From the NCBI RefSeq assembly GCF_003966655.1, contig NZ_AP018795.1, positions 1,020,001-1,084,000 of the forward strand: a stretch of DNA of 64,000 nt. Direction: 5' to 3'. This document shows, one piece after another, positions 1,212-3,797 of the stretch. Every line of letters begins with the position of its first letter. The stretch's first letter is position 1. Below the pieces are notes generated by a model. It was given only the letters and a program-made list of their open reading frames with translations, had not been told where the DNA came from and did not search any database. The position numbers and the translations under genes are program-made. The stretch comes from Acidithiobacillus ferridurans (GTDB lineage: Bacteria; Pseudomonadota; Gammaproteobacteria; Acidithiobacillales; Acidithiobacillaceae).

Positions 1212-3797
<2,586 letters not shown>

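Follow-up and report, generated by a model that had tools for sequence, protein, structure and literature searches.

Does the rarA gene of Acidithiobacillus ferridurans really change reading frame in the middle of its coding sequence, or is the change of frame a product of the assembly? The window analysed here is a stretch of 64,000 nucleotides, positions 1,020,001–1,084,000 of the single contig (2,921,399 bases) that makes up the A. ferridurans assembly G000. The features around the site are listed in the table; the open reading frames upstream of rarA are presumably lolA and ftsK, judging from the list of open reading frames. Frame 0, which begins with the ATG at 3797, matches RarA up to about residue 250 and runs on past the tract as unrelated sequence, and the second-frame piece lacks a start codon at the tract. 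In Pfam searches frame 0 contains the AAA+ ATPase domain (PF00004, E 7.3e-16, residues 48–156), and the second frame contains MgsA_C (PF12002, E 3.4e-67). In the nearest relative (G006, 96% identical) rarA is intact. The G006 RarA of 442 residues, used as a query, matches the window as two pieces in two frames (residues 1–251 and 244–442, each with 95% identity) that overlap at a run of seven C. The earlier note had placed the change of frame at this run, and in this it was right. The break falls near the end of AAA_assoc_2, so the deposited sequence contains no single full-length RarA. A second rarA was not seen in G000 with the G006 protein as query, since the only other match has 35% identity over residues 14–134.

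Table. Features of the rarA locus (positions in the window)
Feature	Position	Strand	Remarks
rarA 5' part, frame 0	2514..3797	-	427 aa; AAA domain and most of AAA_assoc_2
rarA 3' part, second frame	2470..3072	-	MgsA_C domain through the stop codon at 2470
C7 run (G7 on the coding strand), site of the frame change	3060..3066	+	
Single T	3067..3067	+	the intact relative G006 has two T there
Downstream open reading frame	1212..2477	-	421 aa; taken to be serS, by eye from the translation

What the tract looks like in an intact gene can be seen in G006. Its sequence is CCCCCCCTTGG, with seven C and two T, and that of the window is CCCCCCCTGG, with seven C and one T. On the coding strand G006 reads CAA GGG GGG GAA, that is, seven G as in the window and two A as compared to the window's one. 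According to the earlier note eight C would restore the frame. This is true as arithmetic, but judged from the alignment it is one fix only, and not the form that the nearest intact relative has. The simplest single change with respect to G006 would be the loss of an A from AA and not a shortening of the G run. Eight C could still be the true state here, given a CAG codon in A. ferridurans.

The run itself is not kept in the relatives. We searched 17 Acidithiobacillus genomes including G000, and a locus spanning the site was present in 14 of the other 16. All 14 have rarA in one frame, and 13 of them have other bases breaking up the run (GGGCGGT, GGGTGGC and similar; GGGGGT in L008). The two remaining genomes were left out: in G007 (94% identical over 751 matched bases) the contig stops some 30 bases short of the run, and in G012 the match is limited to 53 bases. 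The MgsA_C part gave no match in G007 or G012; both are drafts and this empty result carries no weight. A wider search of contigs for RarA was not used, as the best 80 of at least 585 loci had no Acidithiobacillus in their titles. Within the window the C7 run is not enriched, with 6 matches as against 19 expected from shuffled sequences.

A single broken gene says little about its cause, and we therefore looked at one-base differences between G000 and G006 over a longer distance. The alignment takes in the window together with neighbouring sequence on its right side and has 430,278 columns (277,329 + 152,949). Alignments of 1,500 columns or fewer, of 88% or less, or overlapping a larger alignment by more than 30% were excluded beforehand, and so were gaps of two or more bases, gaps near a second gap (no more than 120 bases away in the final count) and gaps flanked on either side by 50 columns below 92% identity. 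This leaves 52 isolated one-base gaps in well-conserved surroundings (37 + 15 by stretch). Where the gap touches a G/C run of at least four bases, G000 is the shorter sequence 27 times and G006 twice (sign test, p = 1.6e-6). The remaining gaps are evenly spread, with G000 the shorter at 10 and G006 at 13 (p = 0.68), and the difference between the two classes is clear (Fisher p = 1.3e-4). At runs of six or more there are 12 G000-short gaps and no G006-short gap. The G000 assembly thus lacks a base relative to G006 at G/C runs much more often than the reverse. The 27 gaps do not all lie within genes.

It is important to note how these counts were made. The first count went by the run in the longer sequence and gave 12 to 0 in the first stretch and 6 to 1 in the second. 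The final count considers, in the shorter sequence, the run that the gap touches; it was defined after the first lists had been seen and gives 20 to 0 and 7 to 2. The second stretch was fetched after the first had been analysed. It shows the same direction (7 versus 2 at runs, 3 versus 3 elsewhere) with small numbers. By codon phase, G006 keeps the frame at 6 of 12 and 4 of 6 sites of the first count and G000 at 2 and 1, the rest being undecided. Not every G000-short run site is an error, as at three of them (1141396, 1251343 and 1436351) it is G000 that appears to keep the frame and G006 that does not. A general scarcity of long runs carries little weight as evidence: within the alignment, runs of eight number 5 in G000 and 4 in G006, and runs of nine or more 1 and 3. 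GGGGGGGG occurs at 32 positions in G000, 73 in G006, 123 in G002 and 52 in G016. If all 27 G000-short gaps at runs were errors, about one base would have been lost per 16 kb (27 in 430,278 columns).

Several of the gaps have the same shape as the one in rarA, in that G006 has a different base next to or within the run, and the G000 run is one base shorter than the substitution alone would give. Examples, G006 versus G000, are CCCCCTCC versus CCCCCCC (topA), GGGAGGG versus GGGGGG, TCCCCCC versus CCCCCC and, at 1,246,954, AAGGGGGGG versus AGGGGGGG. At such sites a substitution would lengthen the true run, and the consensus would then drop one base.

The consequences for genes were followed in 14 genes, selected because the intact G006 open reading frame bore a family name in NCBIfam and Pfam searches; several open reading frames with gaps bore none. 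Thirteen of the 14 lie at G/C-run gaps, the exception being an NlpE-domain gene. When the G006 proteins were used as tblastn queries, 12 of the 14 genes were found in two frames in G000: rarA, hpnB, pilT, zapD, a UPF0102 gene, an mntH-like gene, tolB, topA, an ompR-like regulator, rmlA, ctaG and pgk. For mlaF and the NlpE-domain gene the 5' part alone was matched.

The strongest case among the split genes is pgk. It has a single place of match in G000, and likewise in G006. The gap (L149, about position 1,485,490 of G000) lies in a run that is G9 in G000 and G10 in G006. More specifically, this run encodes the glycines of the GGGDT motif, and G000 gives GGGTPL followed by unrelated sequence. 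A further change of frame near residue 23 precedes the start of the Pfam PGK domain at 32 and is taken for an over-long start. Phosphoglycerate kinase is required for the Calvin cycle in a cell growing on CO2. A. ferridurans JCM 18981 was grown on CO2 as carbon source, with hydrogen (PMC6256440). Since the gene has only this one locus and growth on CO2 needs the enzyme, we take the break in pgk to be an assembly error, and a gene that the organism needs is thus among those hit. The break in topA tells us less than that in pgk, since G000 has relatives of it elsewhere, one 40% and two 31% identical.

From the one-sided excess at G/C runs, together with the other split genes including pgk, we take the rarA break to be of the same class as the one in pgk. 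As far as comparison of the deposited genomes can tell, it is very probably one of many bases that the G000 assembly has systematically lost at G/C runs. The out-of-frame rarA is most likely not a real feature of the organism, the observation itself being correct. If this is true, A. ferridurans would have an ordinary intact rarA and its assembly would be one base short at a G/C run. There are two ways by which this may have happened. The CAA of G006 may be CAG in A. ferridurans, giving a G8 run of which seven were kept in the assembly; or the A beside the run may have been dropped. The cause would be under-calling of G/C runs in a long-read consensus, a known weakness of the PacBio RS II consensus. 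Our search of the literature on the PacBio error mode found no paper that documents base loss at G/C runs, and the passages of PMC7604302 consulted deal with 454 and Ion Torrent, not PacBio. The assembly of strain JCM 18981, which we take G000 to be, was made from PacBio RS II reads with HGAP 3.0 at 283x coverage, other platforms being unmentioned (PMC6256440). Some points speak against an assembly error. Coverage of 283x should yield a good consensus. The isolate dates from 1976 or earlier (PMC6256440), which is long enough for mutations to arise in culture. A real loss of rarA could also be tolerated, as rarA deletions are viable in E. coli according to the abstract of PMC9012371.

The first alternative is that the type strain has truly lost one base, either from a run of eight G or from the AA next to G7, so that rarA was inactivated recently and no full-length RarA is made. 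Homopolymer runs mutate readily, and two gaps at G/C runs of four or more are short in G006, showing that real or other-genome differences exist. The gene is also dispensable in E. coli, according to the same abstract. On the other hand, the excess of 27 to 2 taken together with the single-locus pgk means that most gaps of this class cannot be real losses. Nor does rarA look like a gene that has been released from selection. Counted by codon position, its differences from G006 number 9/3/15 over the 242 codons that precede the tract and 3/4/16 over the 197 that follow, so the part behind the break is not relaxed. The earlier note had described the codon pattern after the break as clean, and the comparison with G006 bears this out. 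We consider a true deletion unlikely. If the break is real after all, the plain loss of a gene without which E. coli can live would be the most likely case. According to the abstract of PMC9012371, serS expression in E. coli is influenced by the final 15 nucleotides of rarA, and a dead rarA could for that reason be kept partly as DNA.

A second alternative is that the break of frame at G7 is a built-in device and that full-length RarA is made by a fraction of cells, transcripts or ribosomes through slippage, which would give an adjustable dose of a replication-stress ATPase. By reading, the G GGG GGG of frame 0 has the phase of a −1 slippery heptamer, and it is inside this run that the second frame opens. 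However, a phase-variable locus would have its run kept in relatives at in-frame and out-of-frame lengths, and the earlier note had proposed comparing tract length across related genomes; here 13 of the 14 other loci have an interrupted run, and all 14 have rarA in a single frame. In a fold test for secondary structure other than pseudoknots, the 81 nucleotides downstream do not stand out from shuffled sequences (z = 0.08, 95 of 200 shuffles being as good). Comparable losses are moreover found in many unrelated genes. We tried conserved recoding at the tract as a candidate and rejected it, as the heptamer stands in the zero frame but neither a downstream structure nor conservation of the site accompanies it. 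Slippage thus seems very improbable. A mutator strain, with many real one-base losses at G/C runs, would also predict losses such as the 27 seen and is the least probable reading of all, since a real mutator gives gains as well as losses and affects A/T runs too, and the loss of pgk would not be survivable on CO2. The earlier note had left the choice between a sequencing error, an inactivated gene and a slippage switch. The excess at G/C runs and the split pgk speak for the first and the state of the tract in relatives and the fold test against the last, and inactivation is favoured by nothing.

Other differences from G006 were noticed in the window. At 12601 the window reads TTC-CCCCC and G006 GCACCCCC; G000 is short at a C run that lies within open reading frames on both strands, and this may be another lost base. 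At 7304–7320 there are three small gaps (net +4) within an open reading frame of 768 aa, which we take to be ftsK from its reading. Here G006 appears to be the shifted genome, as the open reading frame of the window is open and codon phase is kept. The long alignment with G006 starts at window position 274. The preceding 100 kb (920,001–1,020,000 of G000) did not align with the neighbouring stretches chosen from G006 and contributes no data, and a boundary of a rearrangement or insertion may lie near the left end of the window (1–274). A stretch of 1,192 bases occurs twice, at 40190–41381 and 56205–57396, and each copy also matches the G006 counterpart of the other at about 95%. These are presumably duplicated tuf genes, as their length suggests.

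For users of this reference the result is a caution and not a discovery: the broken genes of G000, pgk included, should not be read as biology unless accurate reads agree. A literature search on Acidithiobacillus with rarA found nothing relevant. The closest known systems are the following. RarA (MgsA) is represented by PDB 3pvs. The 442-aa protein of G006 matches 3pvs_A (residues 8–432, E 9.5e-141) and has AAA, AAA_assoc_2 and MgsA_C in order, and both pieces in the window belong to RarA; the window differs in that the frame is broken near the end of AAA_assoc_2. The dnaX gene is known for programmed −1 frameshifting. Like dnaX, rarA in the window is a clamp-loader-like AAA+ gene, and by reading its homopolymeric heptamer is in slippery phase; it differs from dnaX in having neither a conserved run nor a downstream structure, with relatives in one frame. 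With the homopolymer-loss artefact of long-read assemblies the locus shares one-sided losses of single bases at G/C runs in unrelated housekeeping genes, the difference being that here the losses are deduced from a comparison of assemblies.
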